From Fibrobacter succinogenes (GTDB lineage: Bacteria; Fibrobacterota; Fibrobacteria; Fibrobacterales; Fibrobacteraceae): 64,000 bases of DNA. The stretch is taken from NCBI GenBank assembly GCA_902762305.1, contig CACWNW010000005.1, forward strand, positions 124,001-188,000, written 5' to 3'. Position numbers and translations under genes: made by a program. The notes below the pieces were generated by a model, which searched no databases, was not told the origin of the DNA, and saw only the letters and a list, made by a program, of their open reading frames with translations. Shown piece by piece: positions 2,659-52,125 of this stretch (position 1 is its first letter; every line of letters starts with the position of its first letter).

Positions 2659-4236
2659 ATGCGTTCCTTTGGGTTTGGTGTTTTTGCGTGTGCGGCACTC
2701 TTTGTCGCATGTAGCGATGATCATAGCGATTTTGCGACGCGGCCTTCGGACAGGTCGTCGTCGAGCGTGTGCGAGGACTGCGATGACGGGTTGTCGTCGA
2801 GCGTGTCCAGTAGCAGTTCGGCGGAGTCATCTTCCAGCGCAAAGTCGAGCAGCAGTTCGGCAGAGTCTTCGTCGAGTTCGGTCACTTTGGCAACGCCCTG
2901 CAAAACAGAGACAGAAGACAACTGCGAATACGGCGAATTAACTGATGACCGCGATGGCAAAAAATACAAGACGGTAAAGATCGGTGACCAGTGGTGGATG
3001 GCGGAGAACTTGAACTACGAAACTGGAAGTAACTTTTGCTTCAGTTATGGAGATACCAATTGCGTCAAGTACGGGCGCCTTTATGCTTGGGGTGATGCAA
3101 TGGATAGTGCAGGGACATGGAGCATGAACGGCAAGGGTTGTGGCCGTTTTGGGAAGGATTGCTCGCCGATTTATCCCGTGCGCGGGATATGCCCTAATGG
3201 TTGGCACCTGCCGGACACAACGGAATGGGCGACCTTGTTTGCCGCGGTTGGCGGTAGAGAAATCGCTGGAAAAAAACTCAAGTCCATGTCTGGTTGGTAT
3301 GATTACAAAGGTGAAAAAGGCGGCGGCACGGATGATTTTGGGTTCTCGGCGCTCCCTGCAGGCCTTTTGGGTGACGATGGGTATTACGACGAAGGCGAAG
3401 ACGCGTATTTCTGGAGTTCTATGCATCGCGGGAACCTTTCCGCGTATGATGTGTTCTTGTGTAACCAAAGGGATGCTGTGTCGACGACAGTTTCCTATGA
3501 CAATATAGATGCTCCTGTCTCAGTCCGTTGCGTCAAGGACGATGTTCCTGGGCAAACTGCGCAATTCAGCAGCAGTTCGGCGAAATCTTCTTCCAGCGTT
3601 ACACCGCAGTCGAGTTCCAGCGTCACACCGCTGTCGAGCGATAGCGAGACAAGTGTGTCTAGCAGCAGTTCGGTCACTTTGGCGACTCCGTGCAAAACAA
3701 AGTCGGAAGACAACTGCGAGTATGTCAAGTTGGTGGATGTGCGCGATGGTCAGGCTTACAAGACAGTGAAAATTGGTGACCAGTGGTGGATGGCAGAGAA
3801 TCTCAACTTCAGAACGGACTCTAGTTTTTGCTACAATGATTCTGCCGAGTATTGTGAAAAGTACGGCCGTCTTTACATGTGGGGTGCTGCGTCATCCGCT
3901 TGCCCTAGTGGTTGGCACCTGCCGGACACAACGGAATGGAAAACTTTGATCAATGCTGTCGGTGGACAATCGACCGCTGGCAATGTGCTCAAGTCTATGT
4001 CCGGAAGGAATAGTAGTGACAACGGTACGGATGATTTCGGGTTCTCGGCGCTCCCTACTGGTTACAGGAATGAAGATGGGGATTACTTCGGCGAGGGTAG
4101 CGACCCGGACTTCTGGAGTTCTACGGAGAACGGTAACAGCTACGCGTACCACATGGACTTGGGATCCGGCGACTATGCGTACTTGGGCTGCATCTATAAG
4201 GTCGACGGGTTCCCGGTCCGTTGCATCCAGGACTAA
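2659..4236 (+). CDS. Lipoprotein with two tandem Fibrobacter major paralogous domains
   Basis: Predicted 525-residue lipoprotein. The start at 2659 is preferred to the upstream in-frame ATG (2599): AGGGGGA precedes it and it gives a compact signal peptide, MRSFGFGVFACAALFVAC, with lipobox FVAC. A Ser-rich linker (about 30-75; runs of SSSSS with A, E, K) leads to domain 1 (about 80-295; WWMAENLNYE, YGRLYAWGDA, CPNGWHLPD, FWSSMH, SVRCVKD). A second Ser-rich linker (about 305-345) leads to domain 2 (about 350-525; WWMAENLNF, YGRLYMWG, CPSGWHLPD, FWSSTEN, PVRCIQD). Linker 2 and the start of domain 2 are nearly the same as in the gene at 163. Its stop codon overlaps that of the converging MATE gene by 4 bases. 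Function unknown. Confidence 0.85.
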   Translation: MRSFGFGVFACAALFVACSDDHSDFATRPSDRSSSSVCEDCDDGLSSSVSSSSSAESSSSAKSSSSSAESSSSSVTLATPCKTETEDNCEYGELTDDRDGKKYKTVKIGDQWWMAENLNYETGSNFCFSYGDTNCVKYGRLYAWGDAMDSAGTWSMNGKGCGRFGKDCSPIYPVRGICPNGWHLPDTTEWATLFAAVGGREIAGKKLKSMSGWYDYKGEKGGGTDDFGFSALPAGLLGDDGYYDEGEDAYFWSSMHRGNLSAYDVFLCNQRDAVSTTVSYDNIDAPVSVRCVKDDVPGQTAQFSSSSAKSSSSVTPQSSSSVTPLSSDSETSVSSSSSVTLATPCKTKSEDNCEYVKLVDVRDGQAYKTVKIGDQWWMAENLNFRTDSSFCYNDSAEYCEKYGRLYMWGAASSACPSGWHLPDTTEWKTLINAVGGQSTAGNVLKSMSGRNSSDNGTDDFGFSALPTGYRNEDGDYFGEGSDPDFWSSTENGNSYAYHMDLGSGDYAYLGCIYKVDGFPVRCIQD

Positions 4237-25553: not shown

Positions 25554-27373
25554 TGAAGAACAAATTAATAGTTTTGTTCCTGTTCGTTGCGGTGGCCGTC
25601 AATGCAGCCCAGATTAAGGACATGTCCCTTGATTGCGGTGCGAAGGGCTGTGCGCTCACGTTCAAGTTTGCTTCGGACAAGGATCTGCCCTCGTTCTACC
25701 AGAAGTTCGATGCGAAGTCCCACAAGCTCTCGCTCGGGTTCTCCGCTACGTCTTTTGCGCTCGGTGAAGGCCATTTCGAAATCGATGCGACAAGTAGTTT
25801 TGTGAAGTCGATGAGTGTGTACAAGGAACCCTACCGCGGTGCCGAATTCCTGAAAATCGATTTGATTGTCGGTTCTGCAATTACTACCGACAAGAACGCT
25901 ATCGCGCTCAACAAGTCTGACTTCATGCTGAAGCTCGCGAGCAAGGGCGGCAAGTCCTGGACGCTTTCCAAGCTGTTTGCCGACAAGAAGAAGGCCGCAG
26001 AGAAGGCTGCCGAGAAGGCTGCGCTTGAAAACAAAAAGCAGGCTGCGCTCGACAAGAAGGCCGCCGAGAAGGCCGCGCTCGAAGAGAAGAAACGCCTCGC
26101 CGAAGAAAAGAAGGCTGCCGAAAAGGCTGCGCTCGAAGAACGCAAGCGCGAAGCCGCCGAGAAGAAGGCCGCCGAAAAGCGTGCCCTCGAAGAGAAGAAG
26201 GCCGCAGAGAAGGCCGCCAAGGAAGAAGAGAAGCGCATCGCCGAAGAACAGAAGAACCTGGACAAGGCTATCCTGGAAGGCGGCAAGATTTCGGCGCTCC
26301 TCCCGAACTTGAAAGAAATGACTGTGCTCGTCGGTTCCGGCATGGAACAGTTCCGCCTTGTCGCTACGACGGCAATCGAACTGCAGCACGTAATCGGCCC
26401 GGACAAGGCGTCTACCATTACGGTCGGGCTTGCCGGCCCGCAGAAGTCCCCCGTGTTCAAGATTGGCGCGGGTTCGCTCGTGAAGCATGTGACCTGGGGT
26501 GCAAACGGCCTCAAGATCCAGCTGCAGCCGAACGCGAAGCCTGTTATCGTGGTGCAGGAAGGCGCCCTGATTCTGCAGGCCGCCGAGAAGACCATCAAGA
26601 AGGACGGTTTCCTTTTCTGGTCCGCGCACCCGGATGGAATTTTCGTACGTGACTGGATGAGGGCTTCCGAAGAGAAACCGAACTTCGAGACCTTCGTGAA
26701 CAAGTTTGACAAGGACAGCAAGAAGATTGTTTCTGGAGCGCAGACGTTCCACCTCCGCCCGATTGTGCGTGAACTTATCGTGGTCGCCGACGAAATCGAA
26801 CTTTTTGCCGCTCCCAACGACAACGCGCAGGTGCTGAAGCGCCTCACCTTCGGGGATCGCCTCGTGAGCCTCGACGTGAAGGGCCTTTACTGCAAGGTGC
26901 AGCACGGGAGCCATATCGGCTTCGTGAACAAGCGCGCCGTGAGCTACATGGACGAACTCTCCGCCGTACAGACGGAACGCCTCAAACAGGTCGACAAGGA
27001 AAGGGGTGAAGTCGTTGCCGATGGCGGTGAAGTTGCCGGAAGCCAGCTCGATGGCCTCTACGACGACCGCGTGACTTACAGTTCGTTCGGCCGCCGTGAC
27101 CCGTTCGTCGAAATCAAGGGTCTGGTGGAAGAAGGTATCAATATCGACCAGGTCGAACTTGTCGGTATCATCTGGGAATCCGATGTCCCGATGGCAATCC
27201 TCGTAGAATCCAAGAATCCGTCCATCTCCTACACGCTCAAGGAAGGCGACAAGATTCTCAACGGAAAAGTTCTTAAAATCACACAAACAGACGTGCTCTT
27301 CCTTATCCAGGAATTTGGCGTGAGCCGTCGCTACTCCATGGGTCTTCCCGATAAATTTGGGGGTCAAAAGTGA
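25550..27373 (+). CDS. pilP: PilP-type pilus protein fused to AMIN, coiled-coil and SH3-like domains
   Basis: The 607-residue protein is far longer than PilP (about 175 residues). Order seen: signal peptide (1-19); AMIN-like beta domain (20-125); Lys/Ala/Glu coiled coil of TolA type (about 144-242); a second beta-rich, possibly AMIN-like domain (250-365); an SH3-like domain (405-468; ELFAAPNDNAQVLKRLTFGD, then CKVQHGSHIGFVNK); and a C-terminal PilP domain (about 500-600; YSSFGRRDPFVEIKG, ELVGIIWE, YTLKEGDKILNGKV). PilP normally tethers the PilNO complex to the secretin PilQ. AMIN domains bind peptidoglycan and usually sit at the N-terminus of PilQ, which here lacks one. The coiled coil could span the periplasm. 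Start may be either of two adjacent ATG codons; the gene overlaps both neighbours. Confidence 0.82.
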   Translation: MMKNKLIVLFLFVAVAVNAAQIKDMSLDCGAKGCALTFKFASDKDLPSFYQKFDAKSHKLSLGFSATSFALGEGHFEIDATSSFVKSMSVYKEPYRGAEFLKIDLIVGSAITTDKNAIALNKSDFMLKLASKGGKSWTLSKLFADKKKAAEKAAEKAALENKKQAALDKKAAEKAALEEKKRLAEEKKAAEKAALEERKREAAEKKAAEKRALEEKKAAEKAAKEEEKRIAEEQKNLDKAILEGGKISALLPNLKEMTVLVGSGMEQFRLVATTAIELQHVIGPDKASTITVGLAGPQKSPVFKIGAGSLVKHVTWGANGLKIQLQPNAKPVIVVQEGALILQAAEKTIKKDGFLFWSAHPDGIFVRDWMRASEEKPNFETFVNKFDKDSKKIVSGAQTFHLRPIVRELIVVADEIELFAAPNDNAQVLKRLTFGDRLVSLDVKGLYCKVQHGSHIGFVNKRAVSYMDELSAVQTERLKQVDKERGEVVADGGEVAGSQLDGLYDDRVTYSSFGRRDPFVEIKGLVEEGINIDQVELVGIIWESDVPMAILVESKNPSISYTLKEGDKILNGKVLKITQTDVLFLIQEFGVSRRYSMGLPDKFGGQK

Positions 27374-32247: not shown

Positions 32248-32250
32248 GCG

Positions 32251-32345
32251 ACCGCTTGTTCGTCGTTTCGGGTGATGAAACCTCCGGTTACTCACTCGCT
32301 CTCACTGCAAAGGCTCGTTGATACGAGCCTTTTCCGTTCACGAAA
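32251..32345 (+). repeat. Solitary copy of the two-hairpin repeat, acting as argJ terminator
   Basis: The element begins accgcttgttcgtcg, like the units of the array at 51630. It contains AACC-TCC-GGTT (32279-32289) and, at the matching distance, a strong hairpin AAAGGCTCG-TTGATA-CGAGCCTTT (32309-32332; 9 bp). The hairpin stem is unlike the stems of the array, but lies in the same place in the unit. It starts 3 bases after the argJ stop, so it probably ends argJ transcription. Confidence 0.6.
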
Positions 32346-51513: not shown

Positions 51514-51587
51514 CAAGTCTTCCCGTTTACGGGATCAACAATAACACACACAGGGTGCGCCTCTCTAGCGCACTCACCACAACAACA

Positions 51588-51625
51588 AGGGACTACCTGG
51601 GTCTCCCTGCCTGGGTAGTCCTTTT
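51588..51625 (+). terminator. Terminator of the dcw cluster
   Basis: GGACTACC (51590-51597) and GGTAGTCC (51614-51621) form an 8-bp stem extended by a TGGG/CCTG region, followed by TTTTG. It is 75 bases after the ftsZ stop. A smaller hairpin (GTGCGC ... GCGCAC) lies at 51555-51573. Confidence 0.8.
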
Positions 51626-51629
51626 GTAT

Positions 51630-52125
51630 ACCGTTCGCGCTACGTCTGTGGATAGATACCTCAGGTATGCACTCACTCTCGCCACCACGGCACGCTTGCA
51701 CCGTGCCGCTTGTGGCTCACGATGCGACCGTTCGTGCTACGTCTGAGGAAAGATTCCTCCGGTATGCGCTCACTCTCGCCACCACGGCACGCTTGCGCCA
51801 TGCCGCTTGTGGCTCACGGGTATATCGCTTGCTCGTCGTCTCGGGGACAGAACCTCCGAAATCTCGCTCGCTCTCGCGTCCGCGCCTGGTTAATACTAGG
51901 CGCTTGCCGCTTACGGAATACCGCTCGCGCTAAGTCTGAGGAAAGATACCTCCGGTATGCACTCGCTCTCGCGACCGCCACGGCTTAACGCCTGTGGCTT
52001 TGTCGCTTATGGTGTGACCGCTCGCGCTACGTCTGTGGATAGATACCTCCGGTATGCGCTCACTCTCGCCACCACGGCACGCTTGCGCCGTGCCGCTTGT
52101 GGCTCACGGGCGTCCGCTCGGTATA
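51630..52125. repeat. Tandem array of 97-bp two-hairpin units
   Basis: Five units begin at 51630, 51727, 51824, 51920 and 52017 (spacing 97, 97, 96, 97), with a truncated sixth at about 52113. Each starts (a)CCGCTCGCGCTACG, has the mini-hairpin ATACC-TCC-GGTAT, then CTCGC-rich sequence, then a second hairpin, then CTTGTGGCTCACGG. Units 1, 2 and 5 share the stem CGGCACG/CGTGCCG (one mismatch in unit 2). Unit 3 has GCGCCT/AGGCGC and unit 4 GCCAC-GGC/GCC-GTGGC: different bases but still paired. No long reading frame is supported across it. It lies between the ftsZ terminator and the next gene's start at 52176. Confidence 0.8.

Follow-up and report, generated by a model that had tools for sequence, protein, structure and literature searches.

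The tandem array behind ftsZ in this Fibrobacter genome belongs to a repeat family that is previously unreported and absent from Rfam. We consider it probable that the family is a non-autonomous interspersed DNA repeat specific to Fibrobacter, of the general kind of REP, BOX and MITE elements, with the architecture R-(X-R)n and a fold that is maintained while its sequence changes. A literature search returned no described Fibrobacter repeat of such kind. To what the preliminary description had read from the letters alone, our analysis adds the dispersal of the units through the genome, their rapid exchange and their fixed position at gene ends. The family is structured and spans the genus, in a phylum of fibre-degrading gut bacteria that has been little studied.

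Within the window (the whole 64,000-nucleotide stretch of DNA that was analysed), Tandem Repeats Finder reported 51630-52110 as a tandem array with a period of 97, 5.0 copies and a score of 462. A covariance model placed five head-to-tail units across 51629-52107 (E 4e-17 to 2e-12) at spacings of 97, 97, 96 and 97, so that both methods agree with the five units at 96-97-base spacing plus a truncated one described at first (Table 1). A trailing R of this sort is present behind many clusters. The array had also been placed behind a terminator of ftsZ; its position was correct, and the preceding element was identified instead as the known ftsZ-DE RNA (RF02985). An Rfam search of the window with E values up to 10 yielded ftsZ-DE and one tRNA only, leaving the array without a match. 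Although adjacent in the window, ftsZ-DE and the array bear no relation in sequence or structure, and in those relatives for which this locus was read, ftsZ-DE follows ftsZ whether or not an array is present. The array's most likely role here is that of a passenger lying between ftsZ-DE and the promoter of the next gene, perhaps serving as an insulator, rather than that of a regulator of ftsZ.

Table 1. Positions of the repeat units and associated features. Plain numbers are window coordinates; the nested module is given by locus and position.
Feature	Position	Strand	Basis and remarks
ftsZ-DE RNA (RF02985)	51553..51625	+	Rfam match; array abuts its T-run
Leading R direct repeat (TACCGTTCGCGCTAC)	51629..51643	+	directly after the ftsZ-DE T-run
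Unit 1	51629..51720	-	covariance model, E 4.7e-16; R at low-coordinate end, GTGAGC at high end
Unit 2	51726..51817	-	covariance model, E 1.2e-15
Unit 3	51823..51914	-	covariance model; inner stem divergent (GCGCCT/AGGCGC), pairing retained
Unit 4	51919..52010	-	covariance model; inner stem divergent (GCCAC/GTGGC), pairing retained
Unit 5	52016..52107	-	covariance model, E 3.6e-17
Unit 5, domain 1	52068..52103	-	outer stem H1 = 52099-52103 with 52068-52072; inner stem H2 between
Unit 5, domain 2	52020..52063	-	helix H3 = 52056-52063 with 52020-52027; contains GA/GA tandem mismatch
Truncated trailing R (GTCCGCTCG), start of a sixth unit	about 52112..52120	+	read from sequence
Single dispersed copy	32250..32341	-	covariance model; right after the argJ stop codon (TAA-GC-GACCG)
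Nested module of ~50 nt	L128:2622	-	
Nested module of ~50 nt	L129:2361, L094:2670, L142:864, L176:625, L183:598, L191:679, L203:847		

Each unit is ~92 nt long (89-95), comprises two domains and begins, on the folded strand, with GTGAGC. On the minus strand it reads GTGAGC-xxx-AAA-[inner stem, loop TATTAA]-G-x'x'x'-GCGAGAG-YGAG...CCGGAG...-CGARCGGTC, with H1 as outer and H2 as inner stem, and with H3 formed between the mid-part of the unit and its 3' end. R is a direct repeat of ~15 bp (GACCGYTCGCGCTA or GACCGYTCGTTCGTC) and X spans ~80 bp, with n ranging from 0 to 5; the count begins at 0 because some sites lacking a unit carry exactly one R between the same flanks. H3 forms where R base-pairs with the central part of X, and tandem G-A mismatches lie within this helix. 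Of the two hairpins per unit in the preliminary description, the second is not a simple local hairpin but a long-range helix with tandem GA mismatches, and the covarying structure is on the minus strand.

Pairing is kept where sequence is not. The inner stems of units 3 (GCGCCTaGTATTAACCAGGCGC) and 4 (GCCACaGGCGTTAAGCCGTGGC) are unrelated in sequence, yet both pair, and so does that of the argJ copy (AAAGGCTCG/CGAGCCTTT), as had been noticed initially. Across 97 distinct copies, in an alignment fitted to the structure and compared with shuffles that ignore the relatedness of copies, 88.5% of pair cells were standard against 67.3% in the shuffles, double-change (compensated) cells numbered 377 against 121 +/- 10, and the covariation score was 0.508 against 0.162, with slid partners reaching at most 0.091. 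An unfitted MAFFT alignment of 18 units gave the same covariation picture. The H1 triplets alone include AAC/GTT, CAC/GTG, AAA/TTT, CAA/TTG, GAC/GTC, CAT/ATG and other complementary ones. The family thus displays the covarying secondary structure by which structured RNAs are recognised, and the early suggestion of selection on structure is strongly supported.

Compensatory change can also be followed at single sites between near-identical genomes, namely in the inner stem at L132/L178 and L093/L190, and as one change from GA/GA to GC/GC at L133/L177. This makes the repeat a natural case in which compensation, including switches between GA/GA and GC/GC, is visible at one site. Beside the H3 mismatch the two sides switch together: 43 copies carry GA/GA, 34 carry GC/GC and one carries a mixed GC/GA. 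The GA/GA tandem mismatches themselves occur in H1 and in H3 in 83 of 98 copies each. The folding strand is most likely the minus strand of the window, since the reverse strand would have TC/TC at these positions.

Neutral upkeep of palindromes, in which one arm is rewritten from its partner by template switching (quasipalindrome correction) or by gene conversion and no selection is involved, appears highly improbable as the source of this pattern. Quasipalindrome correction is an established DNA-level process, and the units do exchange. Such upkeep, however, would erase the GA/GA mismatches that are kept at both places as well as the asymmetric AAA side of domain 1, and the arms of H3 covary despite enclosing a long loop. 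Because the mismatches are kept and the long-range arms covary, we argue that the fold is selected and is not a mere by-product of palindrome repair.

Some units are interrupted. The units at L106:2267-2438, L185:772-942 and L218:609-780 carry an insert of ~80 nt within the inner hairpin, in its loop or stem region, which may be a further small element nested there. Separately, a dispersed hairpin module of ~50 nt (CCATGCCCACGTAAGCGCTAAAGCGCTAAGTGGTCAAAG) is nested at one constant position inside units at many loci in several species (Table 1).

The preliminary description had proposed a covariance-model search of Fibrobacter genomes, and extra copies were indeed found. BLAST with one unit as query located 26 places in the genome. 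The covariance model R1, built from 18 units, gave at least 97 matches, at least 91 of them at E<0.001, in 66 clusters defined on one strand, which is a lower bound, 150 of 879 first-look candidates having been scored. Twenty same-strand clusters contain 2-5 units, mostly ~97 bp apart, and start-to-start distances within clusters fall at 93-99 bp in 24 of 31 intervals; just two loci have neighbours on opposite strands, spaced by about 130 bp. Under stricter filters, all 24 other genomes of the genus were positive, with 2 to 51 matches each, and the covariance model detected copies in 0 of 16 genomes outside the genus. An exact-pattern scan of 84,980 species genomes returned 94 stretches, and all 80 among the matches listed were from Fibrobacter or Fibrobacterales, while the same kind of scan of viral contigs (IMG/VR) returned none. 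Many dispersed non-coding copies, restriction to one lineage and variation in presence and absence place the family among small interspersed repeats in the broad sense. Of the outcomes named in advance as counting against the element, a lack of further copies and a loss of pairing in relatives were not observed.

The units favour gene ends. Read in the direction of the preceding gene, the element starts 0-6 nt past a stop codon in 24 of 62 clusters, against 2.2 expected from random placement within the same intergenic spaces, and another 12 clusters start where a terminator T-run ends, against 2.3 expected; these counts are approximate, as genes were called with a simple codon-usage model. The preceding gene is in sense in 49 clusters. 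The remaining 26 of the 62 clusters adjoin neither a stop codon nor a terminator, although the tests miss some cases, such as that at ftsZ-DE. At some sites, including L106 and L086, though not at all, the element itself supplies a new stop codon; at L106 the unit lies inside the gene end and the old tail remains behind it. At L214:619-804 in G070, the preceding gene's coding tail (AKSKSKK*) contains the 5' arm of H3, whose partner follows the stop, and a second tandem unit repeats that tail. Another abundant Fibrobacter repeat, GTCATCCCCGGCTTxGCCGGGGATCTCC or similar, often adjoins the elements (L228, L142, L146 and L151).

This placement, with most preceding genes in sense and many starts within 6 nt of the stop, is what would be expected of an mRNA 3' UTR element that acts in the sense strand on processing or termination of the upstream transcript, and one sub-type has a GC stem that ends in CCTTTT in sense (L135, window 32250). 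We nevertheless regard that reading as rather improbable. An ordinary terminator follows many of the stop-adjacent copies, the terminator-adjacent copies, including the one behind ftsZ, lie outside the transcript, and in sense the conserved GA/GA mismatches would read UC/UC.

Relative to the gene that usually lies before the element, the folding strand is antisense. The gene 5' of the folding strand reads into the element in 33 clusters and away from it in 31, which speaks against consistent transcription and hence against a functional structured RNA, in which the minus-strand transcript of each unit would fold and act as a small RNA or 3'-end element, with arrays providing dosage. Tandem GA is a stable RNA motif and is present in the fold. 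Within the inner stem on the folding strand, G-U outnumbers A-C by 28 to 10 in the less biased count, which mildly favours the minus strand, and that strand folds more stably as RNA than the plus strand in three of four units tested. In the model-fitted alignment, a model-biased count, G-U and A-C are about equal (38 and 35). Further, the family has no Rfam match, sites exchange units with one another, and the closest relative lacks the copies at ftsZ and argJ. An RNA function of this kind is thus possible yet unlikely. A single-stranded DNA or hairpin substrate fits at least as well as RNA, because the folding strand is antisense to the usual preceding gene and the neighbour on the other side shows no preference for reading it. 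From inter-site exchange, empty sites in near relatives and the apparent lack of consistent transcription, we tentatively favour a function in DNA over one in RNA.

Turnover was followed chiefly against G070, a very close relative whose FtsZ is 98% identical and which carries 84 copies. Flanks from 40 of 62 clusters could be placed in G070, and about 24 sites are occupied in both genomes. A comparison of unit number across strains, as the preliminary description had proposed, shows that numbers differ between genomes, with some sites carrying a solo R and others empty. A solo R faces a unit between the same flanks at L128/L166, L116/L170, L199/L220 and L206/L224, and the sites at ftsZ, argJ and L137 are empty in the comparison with G070. 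The gene bordering the single dispersed copy is presumably argJ, a name taken from the preliminary description and from reading the 405-aa sequence; in G070 its stop codon is identical and the element absent. The unit at L137 lacks a trailing R and interrupts the motif GTACTAAAACGTACG, and any target-site duplication at this one precise insertion, judged against G070 and the nearby motif, is at most 1-2 bp. Clean insertion events of this sort are very few, and most absent sites differ in their flanks too.

At the ftsZ locus, G070 lacks the element and its ftsZ-DE stem is different; among the relatives read there, G061, G049, G058 (two), G044 and G014 carry elements and at least nine have none. 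Since the stem in the window differs from that of G070 and equals that of the more distant relatives G075, G061 and G049, the 3' segment of ftsZ may, judging from sequence, have been exchanged between lineages. At shared sites, 18 of 37 units find a closer match at some other locus than among the units of the counterpart site, and at L135/L184 and L124/L186 the type of domain 2 changes while domain 1 stays. The repeat turns over faster than its flanks, which makes it a possible marker for strain typing and a possible origin of new gene tails. The idea that solo R often stands by itself elsewhere in this genome was considered and rejected: about six matches were found against 27 for a reversed-pattern control, which is not above chance.

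Taken with the dispersal of the units, these comparisons suggest that the element would spread as a non-autonomous repeat of the REP, BOX or MITE kind. The fold would be kept through recognition of the folded single strand by some enzyme or host protein, and recombination between R copies together with ectopic exchange would build and remodel the arrays. The position at gene ends would reflect an insertion preference, often after TA in TAA or in T-runs, combined with tolerance. From the units being both folded and exchanged, we infer that a protein recognising the folded strand mobilises them, although local gene conversion together with horizontally exchanged gene ends could account for much of the turnover with no need for transposition.

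REP/BIME and REPIN elements are palindromic hairpins of 20-40 nt tagged by GTAG or CGTC (PMC3733652, PMC2817692, PMC3116915). The Fibrobacter repeat resembles them in being dispersed, intergenic, hairpin-forming, present in many copies, close to gene 3' ends and clustered. It differs in its ~92-nt, two-domain unit, which has neither a GTAG/CGTC tag nor a dedicated RAYT (the Y1 transposase that REP/BIME repeats flank), and in its head-to-tail order, whereas inverted (head-head or tail-tail) dimers predominate in REP/BIME; the cited REP survey does not mention Fibrobacter. BOX elements of streptococci have the form boxA-(boxB)n-boxC (PMC3049150) and are similarly modular, folded and non-autonomous, with a variable number of inner modules and modules common to several loci. 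By contrast, R borders each Fibrobacter unit in place of distinct A and C end modules, the host phylum is different, and the one precise insertion of the Fibrobacter repeat shows no clear target-site duplication.

Several candidate movers were examined and rejected. PF01797, which covers Y1 transposases including RAYTs, was found in 20 of 61 genomes of the genus and not in the other 41, among them G070 and G045 (25 copies of the repeat). RAYT/IS200 enzymes were dismissed as a general mover, Y1 being too sparse and this genome's copy having other hairpins. A single IS200-like Y1 transposase at L027:886-1242 (G000 C18) is flanked by its own hairpins of the AACCACCAGC/GCTGGTGGTT type, unrelated to the repeat. 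The mobiliser is apparently not the enzyme known for REPs. An autonomous version with an internal open reading frame was likewise set aside, given 234 complete units against one lone domain 1 in the sequence examined, and none with an inserted gene.

Integron attC sites conserve structure over sequence, have one folded strand and stand in head-to-tail units, all of which the Fibrobacter repeat shares. It differs from them in its 66 dispersed places and in having no cassette genes, no single platform and no integrase above cut-off. An integron integrase was rejected as mover: six genomes gave none above the TIGR02249 cut-off, and matches below it also occurred in all 14 control genomes. It is a speculative and quite unlikely extension that the units are minimal gene-less cassettes, on whose single folded strand an undiscovered Fibrobacter recombinase would act, inserting, removing and swapping X-R units at R sites at gene ends.

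Two further stretches of tandem repeats were observed in the window. At 3591-3646, a 24-bp tandem repeat (TTCCAGCGTCACACCGCAGTCGAG) resembles TCACACCGCAGT repeats at the L216/L227 site. The stretch 25989-26233 has repeat periods of 54 and 108 bp in tandem and many Lys/Ala/Glu codons, and probably encodes a coiled coil.
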